DNA of 64,000 nucleotides from Terebella lapidaria (taxonomy: Eukaryota > Annelida > Polychaeta > Terebellida > Terebellidae): assembly GCA_949152475.1 (NCBI GenBank), contig OX424563.1:965001-1029000 (forward strand), written 5' to 3'. Positions 3,874 to 50,100 of the stretch are shown here, one piece after another. The notes beneath the pieces are model-generated. The model was not told where the DNA came from. It saw only the letters and a program-made list of their open reading frames with translations, and ran no database searches. Every line of letters begins with the position of its first letter. Position 1 is the stretch's first letter. A program made the position numbers and the translations under genes.

Positions 3874-6800
3874 TTATTTTGTCGGTGTTTGAACCCAACT
3901 ATTCAGAGCAGCCTGTTTCAAAGGTTTTTTTGTCAGATCTTCTTTCATCCAGTCTGTGAAGTAGGACTCCATCTTTCTGCGGCTCTGCCTGCTCCCGTTG
4001 TTCACTGTTGGCAGGATTTTATCTGGCCGCAGAAATTGAACGAATCGTTTCATTTCGGTGTAACTGCTGTGCTCACTGTATGGAATGCCTGTTAGGGTAA
4101 CAGAAGCAATTGAAACATAGTACACTTTGCACTCAATTGACCTTGATGTGATTTGGACAGGTGTAAACTGAATTTGACTTGTGTCATAGCAAATACTTTC
4201 ATTCAGATATTGATATTTCTAAATTATTTGAGAATCCTGATGCGTTACGATCAACAGAAATTGTAATTCCACTCAAATGGTTATGGCAATCCATGTATAC
4301 TTTTTTAACATAAATATTTGGATGAATTTTTTCAACCTCACAGAACCCCCCACCCACACGGACCATAGAGCGTGACTCTGTCTCGCTGTATCTTGGGCCG
4401 GATGTGCTCCAGACTTATGGTTTTCTTGCTGTGTGTCCAACCAGTCGGCTCAAAGGCAAGTACTTTGTCGTAGTGGCTTCTGAACTTCTCAACATAGGAG
4501 TCAAGTTCCTGAAACATAAAAGTCGAGGTCCTGAAACATAGGAGTCGAGGTCCTGAAACATGGGAGTCAAGGTCCTGAAACATAGGAGTTGAGGTCCTGA
4601 AACATAGGAGTCAAGATGATGAAACATAGGAGTCGATATCCTGAAACATAGAGGAGTCAAGGTCCTGAAACATGGGAGTTGAGGTCCTGAAACATAGGAG
4701 TTGAGATCCTGAAACATAGAGGAGTCAAGGTCCTGAAACATGGGAGTTGAGGTCCTGAAACATAGCAGTCGAGATCCTGAAACAGAGGAGTCAAGGTCCT
4801 GAAACATGGGAGTTGAGGTCCTGAAACATAGAGGAGTCAAGGTCCTGAAACATTTCAGTGAATATAGTTCATGAATCACAACAATATCACATGTGTGGTC
4901 CAAACGTCCTTATACATGAAATCTTTGTGCACTAATGTAACATTGTAATTAACTTAGGACCAAAAAAAATGTTTTGGTTAGCGTGGCCAGTGATGAGATT
5001 TTTGTTTTTTTTTGAGTACCGGTTGTGTATCGGTTTTCTTCGAATAAAAAGTGTGTTTGTAGCATATTTTTAATCTAGAACAATAAAAATACAGACTAGT
5101 ACAAAATCTATTTACTGGATGAAAAAACAACAAAACAAGTGAAAAATATTAAGTGATAACAAAATCACTAAAAATTATTATGTAATAAAAAAAAATCACA
5201 AAACTAAATGAATACCAAAAAAATCTTTTTGGCAGATTCTCCCTACAAAATATATCAACCATATAAACTCGTATTGTTTCTAAGCAAGAAGGCCTAGATA
5301 TCGCAAGCATGTAATTTGAAAGTTTGTAATCTGTATGAAAATCTGTATGAAAGTTTTTCACCGAGCAGTTTACTGGGGATGGGCTCGTATGGAAAATTAG
5401 GTGTCATTACTTCCGCGGCCAGGGATAAGCTAGTGTTGGAAAATTGTTTGCCGGATGATCAATAATCTTGAAAATGAATGTGTGAAGTATTAGTTTGCTA
5501 ATTGATTGGTTTGTAGCTTTCACAATCCAACTTCAGGAACGCTCACTGACTTGCACAGAAGAAATGCGGCCGCTGCTGGTGAAATACTATCATGGAAATA
5601 CTATCATCGTTTGGGACGACGCATGTGGGGACGCAAACCAAAACACTGATTTTGTTTTTGCCAAGGCTCTTCACCTGATAGTTTAGACTCTTCATTGGCA
5701 ACACGTGAACTCTGGCCTCCTCCGCTTTCATTGTCAATCGACGCCCCAGAGATTTGTCCTCCAAACACCTCAGGATGTTCAGCTTGTCTCGAGCTACACA
5801 AATCTTGCTTCCTAGTTCCTCCGCAACAGCTGTATGGCATCGTTACTCAAAATATTAACGGGATTATCAATATGAATAGAAGTGGTTATAAATAATTGTA
5901 TCAAATAACAGTGACAGAGTTGTAAATGTACAACGGAAATGATTATTGTTTTTTTTTCTAGTTCGATTCCTGCGAATGTCAGTTAAATATCTGCACCGTT
6001 GAAAACTTGTTGCAAATTTTAATGAGACAACAGCTACTATATATTGTGTGTACCATACCCTGGAATATTCTCTCTTTGCCAATCGTGTAAGATCCAACAA
6101 CCACTATCCCGTTGGGGTTTTCATACACAAATTTAGTGGCAAGGTCAACTGCCAACTGCACCACTTCACGTTGTGCTGGGAACGCGTAGATCGGATCACA
6201 GTAACTGCAAACAGAAGACTTATAGTTCTAGGCACCATAAACAACAGAATAGTACCCGGTTTCCTCCAATATGTTTTTGTACTGACTCAGTGCTTTTCAA
6301 TATGTATACATATATGTAGTATCAAATACTATACAAGTAGTAACAAATATACAGATGACTTAGAAATCAGCATTAGTCGGATTGATCAATTGATATGATC
6401 AAGAACTTGGACTGATCCTTGGAGTGACCAGTAAGTACGTACGTGGTATCAAGGTACAACTGGTGGACGTGCACGCCTTGGAGCTGAGGATAGTCCTCCA
6501 TCGCAGAGCTGGCTCGGAAGTCACCCGTATGCAGGAAGACACGATTGTCAGGCAGCTTGAACAGGATCAGCACCGAGCCGGGACAACTGTCAGAAAACAA
6601 CAACACACAGGGGGTGCTGCAATCAGTTCATTGTATTTTATTCAAAAACATTCCTGAATACTGTAAATATACTATTTTTCACGATGAATTTATACTACAG
6701 ATTTCATGGTAGATTTCATACTATCTTTTTATAACTATTGTGTATAGTACATATAGGGCAAGGAAATAATACTGCAAATATTAATCCTTACAGAACCACA

Positions 6801-15306: not shown

Positions 15307-17230
15307 TTTTTTTTCTTTTTTTAGGTTACCGGACCTATGGTCCGTAACCTATTGGCATGGCGATGCGTCCGGCGTCGTCCGTCGTCCGTCGTCGTCGTCG
15401 TCGTCGTCGTCGTTGTTGTCCGTCAACAATTTTATCTTTAAAGTTTACGATCGAATTTTTCTGAAATTTTGCACAAAAATGCCTAAAAATATTTCGAGAG
15501 GGAGGTATTTTTTAGTTTTTTGATTTTCGCATTTTTTTCAAAATGGCGGCCGTTTTCGACGAAAAATGCCTGATTTTGGACTTTGGCGGCCGTTTTCTCA
15601 AAATCTGTTCAGTAACTTTTTTTTCTTATTGATGAAAAACACTCCTCATATGTACCCCTGTGACATGTATAAATTTCGTTGCGCTTGAATCGCTTGAAGT
15701 GGGCCATTTTTTGCCCAAACTCGGCCCAAATGTGACTTTCCCATGTTAAATTTTCCTATGCTTTATAATGGCACACATTAAGCCTAATATCTCACTTAAT
15801 ATTGAAATTAGAGACTAGGAATGAATTGTGGACATATAGGAAATGATATATGCTGAATATTCTCGTGACCTTGAATTTGACTTTTGACCTCATTTTCAAG
15901 GTCACAGGACAAAATGGCTAATATCTCGCTTATTATCGACTTTACAGCTTAGGAATCAGTTGTGAACATATAGGAAATGATATATGCTGAATATTCTTGT
16001 GACCTTGAATTTGACCTTTGTCCTCATTTTCAAGGTCACATGACAAAATGGCTGATATCTCGCTTCTTATCGACTTTACAGTTTAGGAATCAATTGTGAA
16101 CATATAGGAAATGATATATGCCGAATATTCTCGTGACCTTGAATTTGACCTTTGACCTCATTTCCAAGGTTGCAGGACAAAATTGCTAATATCTCGCTTA
16201 TTATCGACTTTACAGCTTAGGAATCGATTGTGAACATATAGGAAGTGATATATGCTGAAAATTCTCGTGACCTTGAATTTGACCTTTGACCTCTTTTCAA
16301 GGTCACAGGACAAAACGGCCAATATCTTGCTTATTAGCGACTTTACAGCTTAGGAATCAATTGTGAACATATAGGAAATGATATATGCTGAAAATTCTCA
16401 TGACCTTGAATTTGACCTTTGACCTCATTTTCAAGGTCACATGACAAAATGGCTAATATCTCGCTTATTATCGACTTTACAGCTTAGGAATCGATTGTGA
16501 ACATATAGGAAATGATATATGCTGAATATTCTCATGACCTTGAATTTGACCTTTGACCTCATTTCCAAGGTCACAAGACAAAATTGCTAATATCCCGCTT
16601 ATTATCGACTTTAACGGTTAAGAATCAATTGTGAACATATAGGAAATGATATATGCTGAATATTCTCATGACCTTGAATTTGACCTTTGACCTCATTTTC
16701 AAGGTCACAGGACAAAATGGCCAATGTCTTGCTTATTAGCGCCTTTACAGCTCAGAAATCAATTGTGAACATATAGGAAATGATATATGCTGAATATTCT
16801 AGTGACCTTGAATTTGACTTTTGACCTCATTTTCAAGGTCAACAGGACAAAATGGCTAATATCTCGCTTATTATCGACTTTACAGCTTAGGAATCAGTTG
16901 TGAACATATAGGAAATGATATATTCTGAATATTTTAATGATATTGAATTTGACCTTTGACCTAAATTTCAAGGTCAGTCATTTTATTTTCAAAGTCAGAT
17001 TACAAAATGGCTTATATCTCGCTTATTATCAAATTTACAGCTTGGGGTCCATAGTGAACATATAGGAAATGATGTATGCTGAATAGTTTGGTGATCTAGA
17101 ATTTAACCTTTGATCCCATTTTCAAGGTTAGAGATATGGCGATTTCAGTGGTCACCTTCAATTTGACCTTCAACTTTCTCGGCTTAACTCTGTATATTTC
17201 TCCGGTAACCTTTCTAGCCCATTGGGCTAA
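15307..17230 (+). mobile_element. Pearl/Helitron-like non-autonomous element A, copy 1
   Basis: The left end is a T-rich run then GGTTACCGGACC-tat-GGTCCGTAACC, a near-perfect hairpin, followed by a CGTCCGTC-rich block. The centre is a 134-bp tandem array. The right end is tccggtaacc then TAGCCC-att-GGGCTA, a second hairpin. No coding capacity. The plan (unique left end, tandem core, unique right end) resembles the bivalve pearl-type and Helitron-associated satellites. Family assignment is inference. Confidence 0.7.
15770..17110 (+). repeat. 134-bp tandem array rich in AGGTCA sites
   Basis: About nine units. The phrase aaggtca followed by 'gacaaaatggc' recurs near 15898, 16032, 16166, 16299, 16433, 16567, 16701, 16835 and 16970, that is every 133-135 bp. 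Most units hold TGACCTTTGACCT, the reverse of a DR1 nuclear-receptor element (AGGTCA-n-AGGTCA), plus TGACCTTGAA and TTCAAGGTCA as inverted extended half-sites. Unit-to-unit divergence is low in the middle and higher at the edges. Confidence 0.9.
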
Positions 17231-27346: not shown

Positions 27347-30300
27347 ATGGACAGTGACAACCTCTCAGCAGTACCCACCGAGGCGAAGGACAGCACTCGC
27401 ACTGATTCGGAGGGCAGCACTCGCACTGAGGCAAAGGACAGCACTCGCACTGAGGCAAAGGACAGCACTCGCACTGAGGCAAAGAACAGTGCTCAGAGTG
27501 AGGCGGAGGACAACACTCGCACTGAGGCCAAGGACAAGGCTCGGACTGAGGCGACGGACACTGCTCGGACTGAGACCAAGGACAGCACTTGCACTAGTGC
27601 AAAGGACAGCACTCGAACTGACTTGAAGGACAGTACTCTCACTGAGGCGAAGCAGATGGAGGATGAACCATCAGCTTCTTTAATTATCGTCATCAAAGAG
27701 ACACAGGAGTCCACTGCGAGTGGTGGACATCTGTCTGTTGATGATACTCAGGGTAACACTTCTGTACAGAACACGAAGGACAATGTCGGTCAGGACGACA
27801 ACGATGACAACGACCACGCGAAAGTGGAGAATGCTTCTGGAAATAATGACAAGGATGAGCCTGAGAAGTTGTTGAGAAAGGACAGCGATCTGGAGATCAT
27901 GTCTGTCACAGCCGATGTCGCCCAAACAGTCCAGATGTGGGAGGCAGAGGACACTCTGCAGTGTACTTTCTGTAAGCAGGTGTTTGTTGAACAAGGCAGC
28001 TACCTCCTGCACCTCTTGACACACAAAGATATGACTTGTAAGGAACATCTTCCACTGCATAAAACCAAGCTCTGCTATTACAACAGTCGATACCAGTGTT
28101 ATAACTGCAAGCTCAAGACCAAACATAGAGTTGTTTTCCGTGAACATGTCCGACATCATGTCCTAAAGCTGCCATACAAGTGCTCTGTCTGTCTCTTAGA
28201 TCTCAACTCCATCGATGCTTTCCAGAATCATTTGTCACAGAAAGTCTGTTCAGCGACTCAGAAAAACCTGGTGGTGAAACGCACTGATATAGTTCGCCAA
28301 GTGATGAAGATGTTGGGTCCAAATGCTCCAGCAACTGAGCATTACTACGCTGTGGGGAAGAGTTCTGGCACGGGTAAGACTGGTGCCTCCTCCACAAGGT
28401 CTGACGATACGTCTAGTCCCAGCTCTACACCGCCACTGACTGCCAGCGTCACACAACTCGTGTCAGCGTCTAATGCAGCAACATCTACTTCCTCTTTTAT
28501 CAAAGTGACGAGACCTGTCCTGACCTTGGTCTCGGAATCCACCATTTGTCCTACTTCACAGTCAACTACAACTACAGCTTCAATAACTGAGAGTCGAGTC
28601 CAAACAAATCAAGACTCGTCAGTTGAACTGGCTGAGCAAATTGAACACAAGCAACGACTTGACCCGCAGCTTGATTCCAGTGCAGAAGATGGTGTACTGT
28701 ATATTGCCGAGTCACCCAAGGATGCATCTGTTCAGAAGCAGACTCAGGAGAAACTAACATTGGAAACAGAAAGCGCTACATTATGTGAAAGTCCAGCAAG
28801 AAAGAATGGAAGTACACAAGATAATATTGATGAAACTGATGTTCAGAAGGACAAAACCATTGACGAAGATGCTGGAATGTCAGTTAGTTCCGAATCTCAG
28901 ACGACTCAGACGTTGGTTGGTCAGGATCGATGGACTCCTGTCATCATAGGCTGCAGCTCAGTTCAGAAATCTGACGACCCCTCTCAGCCCTCTGTTCCCA
29001 CCACCGAGATCATCGGAGGTACTGCCCCATCAGACGTTGGGACTTCCAAACCTGCTGTAGAAGATGAAGATGGTATTAGAGTGATAGACTTCACAAAGTC
29101 CAGCTCCTCATCAGATGCACTGACCAAATCAACTGAGAGATCTGAGAGCTCCAGCTCTGTCGGTCTTTCGGCCGATCATCCCATCCTGATAAATGACGAT
29201 GACCTCCACAACGCCACCAAGGGTACCCAGAATAAGATCAAGATCGAGAAGAAACCCAACGGCATAGTTCTGCGACTGTTTCGTGATGTGGAGGGAGTGA
29301 TGGAAGACTTGTCTCAGCTAGGGCTTGAGATCAGGGGAAACTGTCTCTTCTGCTACAGATGTGAGAAGCTGTTTGCCAACATGACAGAGTTTGTACCGCA
29401 CGTGTCAACTGAGATCCACAAGATATTCTTTTTCTATGCGGGGCAGTGTCCAGTGTGTAAGCTAGACTCTGATGTCCCTGGAGGTGTACCCTGCAAGCTG
29501 GCTCGCATTCTCTGCCGAGTCCTGGCAGCTGTGTTCAGAAACCAAGCTCAGTCGAATGTCGGTGCAGTCCAAAGTAAGGATGAGAATGCTGCCACTAGTG
29601 CACCGAAAGCTACGGTTTCCCCAGCACGAGAACCTCTTCAAATCCCGGTGCTTCCCCTGCAAGGATCACCCACATTACAGCGCATGGACACACCTACAAG
29701 TCCAGTGGTCAACCCACAGCAGCTTCAACAATCCCCGCAGAAGTTTCTCATCGTTAATGCCAGCCCACAGCAGATTTCTCCTAGACTCCCTGCAGCTAGC
29801 TCAAGTCGGTGCATCATTCTCCAAAATCAAGTGATACCAGTCTCGGCTCCGCAGACTGTTCTCACAGGACAAGTGAACTCGCCTGGTATCCTGACTGGAA
29901 CGGTCAATCAAAAAGGCATTCTCACTGGTTCTGTGAACCAACAAGGTGTCTTGACAGGACCTGTTAATCCTTCGGCGGTACTCGTGCCTGTACAGCAAAG
30001 AGGAAATATGGTCGGAGTGAACCAGACTTCCCAGATCCTGACGGCGCCTTTGGTTCTGGCACCAGGAACACAACTAATCGCCCAAGGTCAGAAGTCCCCG
30101 AGAGTCATCCAAGGCATGCCAGGTCAACAGCAAGGTGGTCTGACTTCTCTACTGACAAGCTCTAGCCTGCCACATTCTCATCAGGCATCCGGAATCGCTT
30201 CAGTCGTCGTACAGCAAGCTCCAATTGTATCTCCCACTTCCCAGCTTGTAACCATGGTAACCCCCAGTACTAAAGTGATAGTACCAAGTGCAATAACAAC

Positions 30301-42934: not shown

Positions 42935-43925
42935 TGCAGCTGTCAGTGAAGCAATGGCTATTGTAGCCACCAGCGATACAATGGTTATTGTAGCCACCAG
43001 GGAAGCAATGGCTATTGTAGCCACCCGTGAAGCAATGGCTATTGTAGCACCAGGGATACAATGGCTATTGTAGCCACCAGTGATACAATGGCTATTGTAG
43101 CCACCCGTGAAGAAATGGCTATTGTAGCACCAGGGATACAATGGCTATTGTAGCCACCCGTGAAGCAATGGCTATTGTAGCACCAGGGATACAATGGCTA
43201 TTGTAGCCACCAGGGATACAATGGCTATTGTGGCCACCAGGGAAGCAATGGCTATTGTAGCCTCCGGGAAGCAATGGCTATTGTAGCCACCAGTGAAGCA
43301 ATTGCTATTGTAGCCACCAGGGAAACAATGGCTATTGTAGCCACCAGTGAAGCAATGGCTATTGTAACCACCAGGGAAGCAATTGCTATTGTAGCCACCA
43401 GGGAAACAATGGCTATTGTAGCCAGCAGGGAAACAATGGCTATTGTAGCCACCAGTGAAGCAATTGCTATTGTAGCCACCAGGGAAACAATGGCTATTGT
43501 AGCCACCAGTGAAGCAATGGCTATTGTAACCACCAGGGAAGCAATGGCTATTGTAGCCACCAGGGAAGCAATGGCTATTGTAGCCACCAGGGAAGCAATG
43601 GCTATTGTAGCCACCAGGGAAACAATGGCTTTTGTAGCCACCAGGGAAGCAATGGCTATTGTAGCCACCAGGGAAGCAATGGCTATTGTAGCCACCAGCG
43701 ATACAATGGCTATTGTAGCCACCAGCGATACAATGGTAATTGTAGCCACCAGGGATACAATGGCTATTGTAGCCACCAGGGAAGCAATGGCTATTGTAGC
43801 CTCCGGAAAGCAATGGCTATTGTAGCCACCAGTGAAGCAATGGCTGTTGTAGCCACCAGTGAAGCAATGGCTATTGTAGCCACCAAAGAAGCAATGACTG
43901 TTGTAGCCACCAAAGAAGCAATGGC
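42935..43925. repeat. 27-bp minisatellite, about 36 units
   Basis: The unit is ccaccagggaagcaatggct followed by attgtag. A few units lose one base ('gtagcaccagg'), and agg/agt/agc variants define subtypes. Because 27 is a multiple of three and the unit has no stop on several frames, open frames of 183-238 codons run through it on both strands (GYNSHCFPG repeat on the minus strand). No exon signals flank it, so I treat it as non-coding. Confidence 0.92.
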
Positions 43926-44769: not shown

Positions 44770-46240
44770 ATCGACGAAAATGAAAAATGTCGACAAATTT
44801 CGGGTCAAGGTCAAAGTTCATCCATAATACCCGCTAGACATGTTTGTCTAGGGCGACGAGTCCGAAAATACCATCCGTTTCGCTCTACGACGCACCGTTT
44901 CCGAGATATCGACGAAAACGAAAAATGCCGACTCGGCAAAAAAATTTCGGGTCAAGGTCAAAGTTCATCAATAATTCCCCTTAGACATGTTTGTCTAGTG
45001 CGACGAGTCCGAAAATAACGTCCGTTTCGCTCTACGACGCACCGTTTCCGAGATATCGACGAAATCGACGAAAACGATAAATGCCGACTCGGCAAAAAAA
45101 TTTCGGGTCAAGGTCAAAGTTCATCAATAATTCCCCTTAGACATGTTTGTCTAGTGCGACGAGTCCTAAAATAACGTCCGTTTCGCTCTACGACGCACCG
45201 TTTCCGAGATATCGACGAAAACGAAAAATGCCGACTCGGCAAAAAAATTTCGGGTCAAGGTCAAAGTTCATCCATAATACCCCTTAGACATGTTTGTCTA
45301 GTGCGACGAGTCCGAAAATAACGTCCGTTTCGCTCTACGACGCACCGTTTCCGAGATAACGACGAAAACGAAAAATGCCGACTCGGCAAAAAAATTTCGG
45401 GTCAAGGTCAAAGTTCATCAATAATACCCCTTAGACATGTTTGTCTAGTGCGACGAGTCCGAAAATAACGTCCGTTTCGCTCTACGACGCACCGTTTCCG
45501 AGATATCGACGAAAACGAAAAATGCCGACTCGGCAAAAAAATTTCGGGTCAAGGTCAAAGTTCATCCATAATACCCCTTAGACATGTTTGTCTAGTGCGA
45601 CGAGTCCGAAAATAACGTCCGTTTCGCTCTACGACGCACCGTTTCCGAGATAACGACGAAAACGAAAAATGCCGACTCGGCAAAAAAATTTCGGGTCAAG
45701 GTCAAAGTTCATCCATAATTCCCCTTAGACATGTTTGTCTAGTGCGACGAGTCCGAAAATAACGTCCGTTTCGCTCTACGACGCACCGTTTCCGAGATAT
45801 CGACGAAAACGAAAAATGCCGACTCGGCAAAAAAATTTCGGGTCAAGGTCAAAGTTCATCCATAATACCCCTTAGACATGTTTGTCTAGTGCGACGAGTC
45901 CGAAAATAACGTCCGTTTCGCTCTACGACGCACCGTTTCCGAGATATCGACGAAAACGAAAAATGCCGACTCGGCAAAAAAATTTCGGGTCAAGGTCAAA
46001 GTTCATCCATAATACCCCTTAGACATGTTTGTCTAGTGCGACGAGTCCGAAAATAACGTCCGTTTCGCTGTACGACGCACCGTTTCCGAGATATCGACGA
46101 AAACGAAAAATGCCGACTCGGCAAAAAAATTTCGGGTCAAGGTCAAAGTTCATCCATAATACCCCTTAGACATGTTTGTCTAGGGCGACGAGTCCGAAAA
46201 TAACGTCCGTTTCGCTCTACGACGCACGGTTTCCGAGATA
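44770..46240 (+). repeat. 147-bp tandem array
   Basis: About ten units. 'actcggcaaaaaaatttcgg' starts at 45087, 45234, 45381, 45528, 45675, 45822, 45969 and 46116, always exactly 147 bp apart. An earlier copy at 44931 is 156 bp upstream because of a 9-bp insertion. Units differ at only a few positions (taatt/taata; ataacg/atatcg). Each holds GGTCAAGGTCAAAGTTCA, a DR1-like nuclear-receptor site. Confidence 0.95.
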
Positions 46241-46887
46241 TGCAGGATGAATCAAGGATGACTCAGCAAAAAATTATTTCGGCCTCTAGGTCAAAGGTCG
46301 TTTGAGGTATCGATCCCAAAATCAATAGGGTTCTTCCCTGGTGATATATAAACCTCCGTGCAAAATTCTGCAACTATTGCCTGAATATTTTTTGAGTTAT
46401 CGTCCGGAAACCAAGTTCCTCGATTTCATCCTCACGGACCTCACGGACCTCGGAGCCGGATCAAAAAAAAAAGTACACCCTAGAGATGTTTGTCTAGGGC
46501 GACGAGTCCGAAAATAACGTCCGTTTCGCTCTACGACGCACGGTTTCCGAGATATGCAGGAAGCCTCAAGGATGAATCAGCAAAAAATTATTTTGACCTC
46601 TAGGTCAAAGGTCGTTTGACGGATCGATCCCAAAATCAATAGGGTTCTTCCCTGGTGGCATATGAACCTCCATGCAGAATTCTGCAACTATTGCATAAAT
46701 ATTTTTCCAGTTATCGTCCGGAAACCAAGTCTTAAAATTAGCCTTGATTTCATCCTCACGGACCTCACGGACCTCGGATCCGGCTCAAAAAGAATAGGGT
46801 TCTTCCTCATATCATTTCTGACTTGCGGTGAAAATTTGACAAGGATCCGTCAAGGCAATCTAAAGTTATCGTCCGGAAACCAAAAGT

Positions 46888-46898
46888 GGCGGAAGAAG

Positions 46899-46935
<37 letters not shown>
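46888..46935 (+). repeat. Poly-A tract in element B
   Basis: 'gaagaag' is followed by about 40 A. It lies between the tandem part and the terminal hairpin. In the short copy at 19.4 kb the same place reads 'tttttcttcttccgc'. Confidence 0.8.
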
Positions 46936-47183: not shown

Positions 47184-50100
47184 CTAAGCTTTTCCGGCCT
47201 TCTCCATTGCCTGAAAAACCAAGTAATCCAGCTTAACTAGACATCCATATAGATGTGTACTGTTACAGTGTACACATATTTTATCAGACACGATGGATTT
47301 TGAATGAATTTCATTTAATTTTACCTTGAGAATAGTAGTTCCCATCTGGGCAGGACTTTGTGTCACGTTGACGCCGGCGGCTTTCAAGGCCTCGATCTTC
47401 TCTCGGGCTCCTCCCTTCCCACCAGCGATGATGGCTCCAGCGTGACCCATTCTACGCCCCGGAGGCGCAGTCATTCCAGCGATGAATGCTGCCACGGGCT
47501 TGCTGTTTGGGCCCTGTAACACGCAAAGGTTGTCATATCAAACACTACTTCAGCGATGAATGCTCCCACGGGCTTGCTGTTTGGACCCTGTAACACGGAA
47601 AGGTTGTCATATCAAACACTACTCCAGCAATGAATGCTGCCACGGGCTTGCTGTTTGGACCCTGTAACACGGAAAGTTGTCATATCAAACACTACTCCAG
47701 CGATGAATGCTGTCATGGGCTTGCTGTTTGGACCCTGTAACACGGAGAGGTTGTCATATCAAACACTACTCCAGCGATGAATGCTGTCATGGGCTTGCTG
47801 TTTGGACCCTGTAACACGGAAAGGTTGTCAAATCAAACACTACTCCAGCGATGAATGCTGCCACGGGCTTGCTGTTTGGACCCTGTAACACGGAAAGTTG
47901 TCATATCAAACACTACTCCAGCGATGAATGCTGTCACAGGCTTGCTGTTTGGACCCTGTAACACGGAAAGGTTGTCATATCAAACACTACTCCAGCGATG
48001 AATGCTGTCACGGGCTTGCTGTTTGGACCCTGTAACACGGAAAGGTTGTCATATCAAACACTACTCCAGCAATGAATGCTGACATGGGTTTGCTGTTTGG
48101 ACCCTGTAACACGGAAAGGTTGTCATATCAAACACTACTCCAGCGATGAATGCTGCCACGGGCTTGCTGTTTGGGCCCTGTAACACGGAAAGGTTGTCAT
48201 ATCAAACACTACTCCAGCGATGAATGCTGTCACGGGTTTGCTGTTTGGACCCTGTAACACGGAAAGGTTGTCATATCAAACACTACTCCAGCGACTGCCA
48301 CGGACTTGCTGTTTGGACCCTGTAACACGAAAGGTCGTCATATCAAACATTACTCCAGCGATGAATAATGCCACGGGCTTGCTGTTTGGACCCTGTAACA
48401 CGGAAAGGTTGTCATATCAAACACTACTCCAGCAATGAATGCTGCCACGGGTTTGCTGTTTGGACCCTGTAATACGGAAAGGTTGTCATATCAAACACCA
48501 CTGGTGCCCGCACAACCCAATGACAATCTAATACAGTGGCAAGAATATAAATTGATTGATACGAGTTGTACGGTATGAATAAAAAAAAGTTAGACTCACA
48601 GTATTATGTTCTGTCAAGAAGTCAGCTGCCCGCTCCTCGGCTTGCCCTCCAATCTCTCCTATCAACACAATACCTGAAACAACACAAGTCACTCGAAATT
48701 CAGGCACTTTAGGGTGTAAAACATCATCCAACTGTCTGTGACTTCAATTAAACTCCTGCCACAAGCCCACAAAGTCACATAGTACCATCAAGGAAACTTC
48801 ATACCAGCACCTTGGTCTTCAACATACTAACCTTCGGTTTCTGGGTCTTTCAAGAAGACATCTAAACAATCGACAAAGTTGGTGCCATTGAAAGGATCCC
48901 CACCAATACCCACACAGAGCGTCTGTCCGAGGCCGACTTGTGTCGTTTGATAGACTGCCTCGTATGTCAGCGTTCCTGATCTTGATACAATACCTTGGAA
49001 ACAGAACAGCTGGCATAAAATACAAATCTACTTACAAGCTAATACTCCGTGTGTCAGCTATACTTTATATAAGTAATATGTGATTCATCCACACTGCATC
49101 TAGCACACAAGATTTCTGTTCACCAAGAATGACTAACATTACTTGCCTATTTTTCCTTTTTTGTGGATATGGCCAGGCATGATTCCTATTTTGCATTCTC
49201 CAGGCTACAAAATAATTTTCACTAATGTATGTATGCAATATATTACAAAAGTTCAGTTGAATTTTCTATTTTGGAATTGAAATATGATTAAACATTTCAG
49301 TCTCTAGAGTGAGGATATACATGTAATGATTTTCATTTTACTGCAGACCAGATGCCACACATACTCGAATGATTCCCGGGCAGTTTGGACCAATTATCCT
49401 TGTACTGGACTGCCGCAGAAGCCTGTTCTTGACTCGCACCATGTCCTGCTGAGGTATTCCTTCTGTTATTACTACAACTAGTCCCATTTCAGCATCCATA
49501 GCATCCATAACAGCTGCGGCTGCGTGTGAGGGTGGCACATATATAACAGACGCATCGGCTCCCGTCGCATCTTTGGCCTGATAGGGAAACGTAAACATCA
49601 ACAACTGCCTTGTAACATTCACAACACCAAAACTTTTCGTGACGGAAAAAGCAAACACGAATAGGATAAATACACACCCAGTACACAGGTAAACCCAAAA
49701 TTTGTGATAAACCCAAACAACGAGGTTTGGAAACACCGGCATACATCATGTAGACAATCTATTGGAATCTTTACCTCTTTGACCGTGTTGAAGACCGGCA
49801 AACCCAGGTGCATGCGGCCCCCTTTCCCGGGCGACGTCCCTCCAACTATGTTTGTTCCATACTGGATTGCCTGTTCTGCATGGACAGTTCCCTACAAGAT
49901 ACGACAAGGGAGAGTGTGACTTCCCACAATAGTTGAACAGCCCACCATGCCATTCCAGTATCTATGGTTCACATATCATGCATATATACATTAGTGTATT
50001 GATCACCATTCATGCTGATCAGATCTAGTTGGAACAGTTCATCAAGTTACTTAGTGACTTTGTCTTCCTTTCTGATCGTTGGAGAAATATCAATACACAT

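Follow-up and report, generated by a model that had tools for sequence, protein, structure and literature searches.

Why is intron 7 of the SUCLG1 gene of the annelid Terebella lapidaria filled with tandem copies of its own 3' splice site, and do these copies take any part in splicing? The gene lies on the minus strand of the window, the stretch of 64,000 nucleotides analysed here, which belongs to the contig labelled C9; positions are those of the window unless a contig is named. The protein joined from exons 2–9 matched 2fp4_A (succinyl-CoA ligase alpha) with an E value of 4e-157, thus identifying the gene. When the same protein was used as a query against the 761.6-Mb assembly (438 contigs), all six genome matches fell at the SUCLG1 locus (eight candidates scored), and a genome-wide search for a second gene or a retrocopy, a possible spliced form, revealed neither. 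Exon 7 (48600..48673, minus strand, donor ACT|GTGAGT) is separated from exon 8 (47325..47513, minus strand) by the 1086 nt of intron 7 (47514..48599, minus strand). Exon 8 comprises 189 nt, begins at the real acceptor 47514/47513, ends with the residues TTILK and is followed by the donor AAG|GTAAAA. Read from 47513 it contains no stop and aligns along its length with 2fp4_A. The coding part of exon 9 (47184..47210, minus strand) adds AMEKAGKA and a stop codon ending at 47184. Farther upstream, intron 5 showed an apparent GC donor (TAG|GCAAGT) at 49146 on the minus strand. An Rfam search of the window gave no matches.

Tandem Repeats Finder (TRF) delimited an array at 47475..48502 (minus strand) with a period of 74, 14.0 copies, 93% match and a score of 1783, while 200 dinucleotide shuffles of 47325-48700 yielded two hits with a maximum score of 66. 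The last copy consists of the real acceptor and the first 39 nt of exon 8. In gene orientation, 14 acceptors were found in register, 13 of them intronic and one real, with their first exonic bases at 48466, 48392, 48319, 48251, 48177, 48103, 48029, 47955, 47882, 47808, 47734, 47661, 47587 and 47513, the last being the real one. The initial annotation, which had intron 7 filled by about 13 copies of its own 3' splice site together with the start of exon 8, was thus borne out by both TRF and the register of the acceptors; the span given for the feature (47325..48500) holds the array and also takes in exon 8 itself (47325-47513). Once the 953 nt between the first and the last acceptor are set aside, an intron of 133 nt is left.

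The 13 intronic units, all upstream of the real exon 8 acceptor on the minus strand, share one layout: 34–35 nt of intron end, TTACAG|GG and the start of exon 8, which runs into GTAGTG where exon 8 itself has ATGACT. They are less uniform than initially described. The unit length of 74 bp holds as the TRF period, with single units ranging from 68 to 74 bp. The acceptor motif GTGTTACAG is present in 12 of the 13, unit 1 reading GTATTACAG instead, and the exonic part measures 39 nt in all units except unit 3 (48287..48319, minus strand), where a 6-nt deletion has left 33 nt. The 13-residue peptide of exon 8, ascribed to every unit, is encoded exactly by four of the 13 (units 1, 5, 9 and 12). GTAGTG, proposed as a weak donor, follows the exonic part in 12/13 units, with GTAATG in unit 2, so that splice-like AG and GT signals occur in 13/13. 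The upstream-most unit 1 combines a decoy acceptor with a 39-nt potential pseudo-exon (48428..48466, minus strand), as does unit 13 (47549..47587, minus strand), which ends in GAA|GTAGTG and lies only 35 nt from the real acceptor.

To model the splice sites, 53 exons were taken from chaperonin, kinesin and myosin genes of this genome. The 13 SUCLG1 decoy acceptors scored 8.0–10.4, compared with 10.07 for the real acceptor and a median of 9.39 for the 53 reference exons. Use of a decoy acceptor without its donor would lead to a stop after 29–40 codons in 13/13 cases. The exons behind the models had passed a filter on donor and acceptor scores, which retained 53 and discarded 21; the decoy donors are therefore better judged against the real donors of SUCLG1, of which seven were scored (E2–E8). 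These reached 3.8 to 10.0 and paired with U1 at -4.4 to -9.3 kcal/mol. The decoy donor GGA|GTAGTG scored -2.43 by position weight matrix, the variants in units 2 and 13 scored -0.23 and -0.53, respectively, and the decoy donors paired with U1 at -3.3 to -3.7 kcal/mol (GGA|GTAGTG at -3.7). The gap in U1 pairing between decoy and real SUCLG1 donors is small, and two of the 53 reference donors are weaker still (-2.5 and -1.9).

A second array, in DCLRE1A (4491..4853, minus strand), has a unit of 22 bp, made up of TCAG and the first 18 nt of the exon (GAACTTGACTCCTATGTT, with variants). It presents 14 decoy acceptors, scoring 5.6–12.6, and a real one at 4508, scoring 10.2. The motif ATGTT is common to the intron end and the exon at a distance of 22 nt, which equals the unit length and is what an origin by slippage predicts. 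The sole candidate donor seen leaves an intron of roughly 700 nt without the array. In keeping with the initial annotation, this array is real and unrelated in sequence to that of SUCLG1: the two have at most five 14-mers in common, the limit used.

The pair proved not to be isolated. We surveyed 244 kb around and including the window, 180 kb of which are flanks, for arrays with a period of at least 15, at least 100 bases and at least three copies. Of 29 such arrays 12 were unique in sequence, and five of these 12 ended at a splice site, a count that may be too low, as edges were inspected for 11 of the 12 and the array at 140461 was left out. From 36 arrays 138 edge ORFs were listed, and the profile scan took in nine proteins picked by eye. 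Three of the 12 were anchored strictly, that is, with a unit that includes exon sequence: those of SUCLG1 (39 exonic nt), DCLRE1A (18 nt) and a CHMP7-like gene with a Snf7 domain (7 nt). The last (C9 1,092,709-1,093,636) has 12.1 copies of 77 bp, and its 12 decoy acceptors scored 8.8–10.0 against 9.8 for the real one. The remaining two were looser. A 31-bp array at the acceptor of a zinc-finger gene (C9 882,376-883,548) has only ACAG|C in common with its real acceptor, and its 32 scored decoys were much weaker (-0.3 to 6.0) than the real site (9.7). A 51-bp array (C9 867,821-868,680) ends 2 nt before the AG of a Rad21/Rec8-like exon, which is weakly identified (12.6 bits against a cut-off of 22.7, E 0.083) and for which a search for a relative of solved structure gave none.

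Other repeats of this stretch were recorded as well. A 59-bp array at -66830..-66493 in window coordinates was not counted, since by eye it lies about 100 nt past a likely donor; sequence near it is longin-like (Pfam, 23.1 bits against a cut-off of 26.1). Satellite families of about 147 and 134 bp (44795-46241 and 15784-16976 in the window) recur in several arrays over the 244 kb. A 24-bp repeat at 27376-27652 lies within an open frame that continues into zinc-finger-like sequence and may code for an 8-residue repeat. A 27-bp minisatellite of about 37 copies occupies 42944-43925, its edges, judged by eye, being without a recognised exon.

If arrays were placed at random, 60 to 300 assumed splice sites in the 244 kb would give 0.16–0.75 anchored arrays. 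Under these assumed numbers, at least three anchored arrays have a probability of 0.0002–0.032 and at least five one of at most 0.0005, figures to be read with the fact that the choice of this window was prompted by two arrays noticed there. Within the 180 kb of flanks alone, three of eight unique arrays were anchored, one of the eight strictly.

Beyond this stretch, 17 gene regions were examined, hand-picked and thus not a random sample. Fourteen compact regions contained no array within the size limits, though small two-copy repeats occurred there, one adjoining an exon match. Three long-intron regions held four arrays within the limits, of which three were anchored, all in a chaperonin gene with a Cpn60_TCP1 domain on contig C16; in the other two regions the arrays lay 224 nt or more from known exon matches. 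For the Snf7 and the chaperonin gene we presume the names CHMP7 and CCT1, respectively. At an acceptor of the chaperonin gene, 34.2 copies of a 38-bp unit include about 9 exonic nt. Here the real acceptor scored 3.3, no better than the weakest of the 28 scored decoys (3.3–8.3). The other two arrays adjoin donors: a 20-bp unit in 119.1 copies begins right at the donor (region C16:33980516-33982855), and a 32-bp unit in 4.2 copies likewise starts at a donor. A rule that only acceptors are affected, drawn from the first five arrays, was dropped in view of these two donor arrays.

Minisatellites that span an exon–intron boundary and so repeat a splice site are known from humans, namely the 31-bp VNTR of CBS and the 37-bp repeat in intron 7 of factor VII. 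Both repeat donors, whereas SUCLG1 repeats acceptors. In amphioxus such structures go by the name of mirages, the original description of which is reportedly that of Canestro in 2002. They are minisatellite-like tandem duplications of an intron–exon boundary that bear cryptic AG/GT signals and leave the authentic boundary intact (PMC3087553). Examples are Adh3, the globins BflGb6 and BflGb9, and TnC, with similar repeats in PGBD5, and reported unit lengths span 10–160 bp (PMC3087553, PMC3902484). Their length varies between haplotypes, and RT-PCR suggests regular splicing (PMC3087553). The SUCLG1 array has the same features, being a tandem repeat with a boundary-spanning unit, AG/GT signals and an intact authentic exon, and resembles BflGb6 in that the unit joins an intron end to an exon start. 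Mirages by that name were all cephalochordate in the literature found, whereas the SUCLG1 array is annelid, and copy numbers at the strict annelid acceptor cases run from 12 to about 34, compared with 6 and 3 in the BflGb6 haplotypes described.

Another precedent is the human CBS allele 844ins68, like the SUCLG1 array a duplication of an intron 7/exon 8 junction. It is a human polymorphism with one extra 68-bp copy, in contrast to the multi-copy array of SUCLG1. Splicing there strongly prefers the more distal of the duplicated sites, and the repeated piece of exon is removed (PMC2630376); the paper calls these sites donors, while a title it cites (Romano 2002) speaks of a 3' splice site. Intron gain by tandem genomic duplication, as discussed in PMC3087553, also involves a tandem duplication carrying splice signals, but beside the SUCLG1 duplication an intron already stands. 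Among annelids, earthworm metallothionein genes contain intronic minisatellites, and one clone has exon 4 duplications absent from the transcript; unlike in SUCLG1, no unit is said in the relevant part of that report to span a splice site (PMC12783039). A search of the open-licence literature found no published case of a mirage or an acceptor minisatellite in an annelid. The SUCLG1 array therefore belongs to a kind already known from amphioxus and is, as far as we could search, the first in annelids.

We consider it very likely, judging from sequence, that the SUCLG1 array is a mirage minisatellite, a near-neutral product of duplication in a short intron of which the last acceptor is used. This reading builds on the array and its register, the near-equal acceptors, the weak donors, the intact last copy and frame, and the similar arrays elsewhere in the genome, all of which were observed. 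By chance, a tandem duplication would have taken in the acceptor at the end of a short intron, and the array would then have grown by unequal exchange or replication slippage. Under exon definition, the spliceosome would match the donor of exon 8 to whichever acceptor lies closest upstream, namely the 14th, which is the real one. Copies 1–13 would leave with the intron, making the array nearly neutral, and occasional use of a decoy would give a premature stop and a transcript expected to be degraded. Going by the acceptor scores, sequence at the acceptor is not enough, in most of the arrayed genes, to single out the last copy; exon definition is the answer we infer.

Splice sites may be hit often because many introns were short before their expansion and because a duplication leaves one good copy of the splice site in place. 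A unit of length u placed at random in an intron of length L overlaps a splice site with a frequency of 2(u-1)/(L+u-1). In SUCLG1, where the intron would be 133 nt and the unit is 74 nt, this comes to 71% of placements, and for four other anchored arrays to 59%, 25%, 15% and 48%. With the arrays removed, these five introns measure 97–228 nt and the overlap share runs from 0.15 to 0.71, a plausibility argument and not a test, as they were picked because their arrays are anchored. Duplication in short introns would thus produce boundary-spanning arrays without any special mechanism, and selection would have no need to purge them, since the exon and its last acceptor (or first donor) remain intact. 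Not every array fits this argument: unrepeated sequence of at least 700 nt precedes the 38-bp array of the chaperonin gene, and the DCLRE1A array probably also sits in a longer intron. Five of 12 arrays at splice sites exceed the random expectation of 0.16–0.75, which leaves room for an attraction to splice sites beyond that of short introns. The bolder proposal that in the lineage of this worm splice sites are favoured places for minisatellites to arise, giving many genes 12–34 decoy acceptors that are often as good as the real one, we regard as unlikely.

A role in regulated unproductive splicing, in which decoys would lead to premature stops and the copy number would set the output of the gene, seems to us quite improbable. 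The 13 near-equal SUCLG1 acceptors, each leading to a stop, would suit it, and so would the decoys of the CHMP7-like gene and DCLRE1A with their scores spread around that of the real site. The zinc-finger array with its much weaker decoys speaks against such a role, as do the amphioxus and CBS precedents, in which splicing is normal by the available reports.

The initial annotation had further proposed that a unit could act as a 39-nt in-frame pseudo-exon, adding copies of 13 residues before the active-site segment. An AG, 39 nt without a stop and a GT are indeed combined in 12 of the 13 units and the frame would be kept. From units 1–12 to the real acceptor the intron would measure 109–914 nt, so that length alone permits the inclusion of a single unit, and two of the 53 reference donors pair with U1 more weakly than the decoy donor. 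The decoy donor falls below all seven real SUCLG1 donors scored, although a low score does not prove that a donor goes unused, and splicing from one unit to the next would require introns of 34–35 nt, compared with 78 nt for the smallest of 39 reference exon gaps. In addition, an insertion of 13 residues within the Ligase_CoA domain would probably disrupt folding.

Variation among the units argues in the same direction. Over the 14 copies, 29 of 546 exonic cells differed from the majority (six of them through the deletion in unit 3), compared with 10 of 490 intronic cells; the exonic part is thus no more conserved than the intronic one. In the 12 units other than unit 3, omitted for its deletion, the distinct changes relative to exon 8 comprised seven nonsynonymous and four synonymous ones, so that the exonic part alters amino acids in seven distinct ways. 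Counted by cell, codon differences from exon 8 were synonymous in 18 cases and nonsynonymous in 12, while all possible single changes divide into 30 and 87. This lean is not what free drift alone would give, were the cells independent; we attribute it to a small number of inherited changes, one being GGC to GGT, which is common to most units. We read the exonic part as being under no clear constraint as protein, and inclusion of the units as pseudo-exons appears very unlikely. That the SUCLG1 copies are a false expansion made in assembly is scarcely credible: tandem arrays are difficult to assemble and a run of 37 A lies 540 bases away (46899-46935), but the units differ by up to 18 similarity-score points and carry distinct substitutions and indels, and the assembly was made from PacBio reads with a stated QV of 60 (PMC11364976).

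For the mirage reading, the interest lies in how frequent such arrays are and in how the last of many near-equal acceptors comes to be chosen. The annelid cases (SUCLG1, DCLRE1A, CHMP7-like and chaperonin) suggest that mirages are to be expected in any genome where minisatellites form frequently and introns are short to begin with. Each array is a natural test of acceptor choice, and if the last copy is indeed used, something beyond the acceptor sequence must select it. Were minisatellites truly born by preference at splice sites, they would lend themselves to studying how the last acceptor is selected, would act through unproductive splicing as a variable brake on gene output and would steadily supply new exons and introns.

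The genome searches brought further observations. On small contigs (e.g., C363, C414 and C150), kinase, kinesin and myosin matches contained many in-frame TAA and TAG codons. By this genetic code they look like ciliate genes, and the assembly probably includes contigs from an associated ciliate. The 15,973-bp mitochondrial contig carries 22 tRNAs on one strand, two adjacent ones being for methionine, a pair known from Terebelliformia; all genes recognised on it share that strand and follow the order usual in annelids. An amphioxus origin of the sequence, which the mirages had suggested, was rejected on these grounds. At C1:67002015-67016119, several myosin-head matches in tandem fell on identical parts of the profile (about 117-165 and 593-640), the pattern that mutually exclusive exons of a muscle myosin gene would give.
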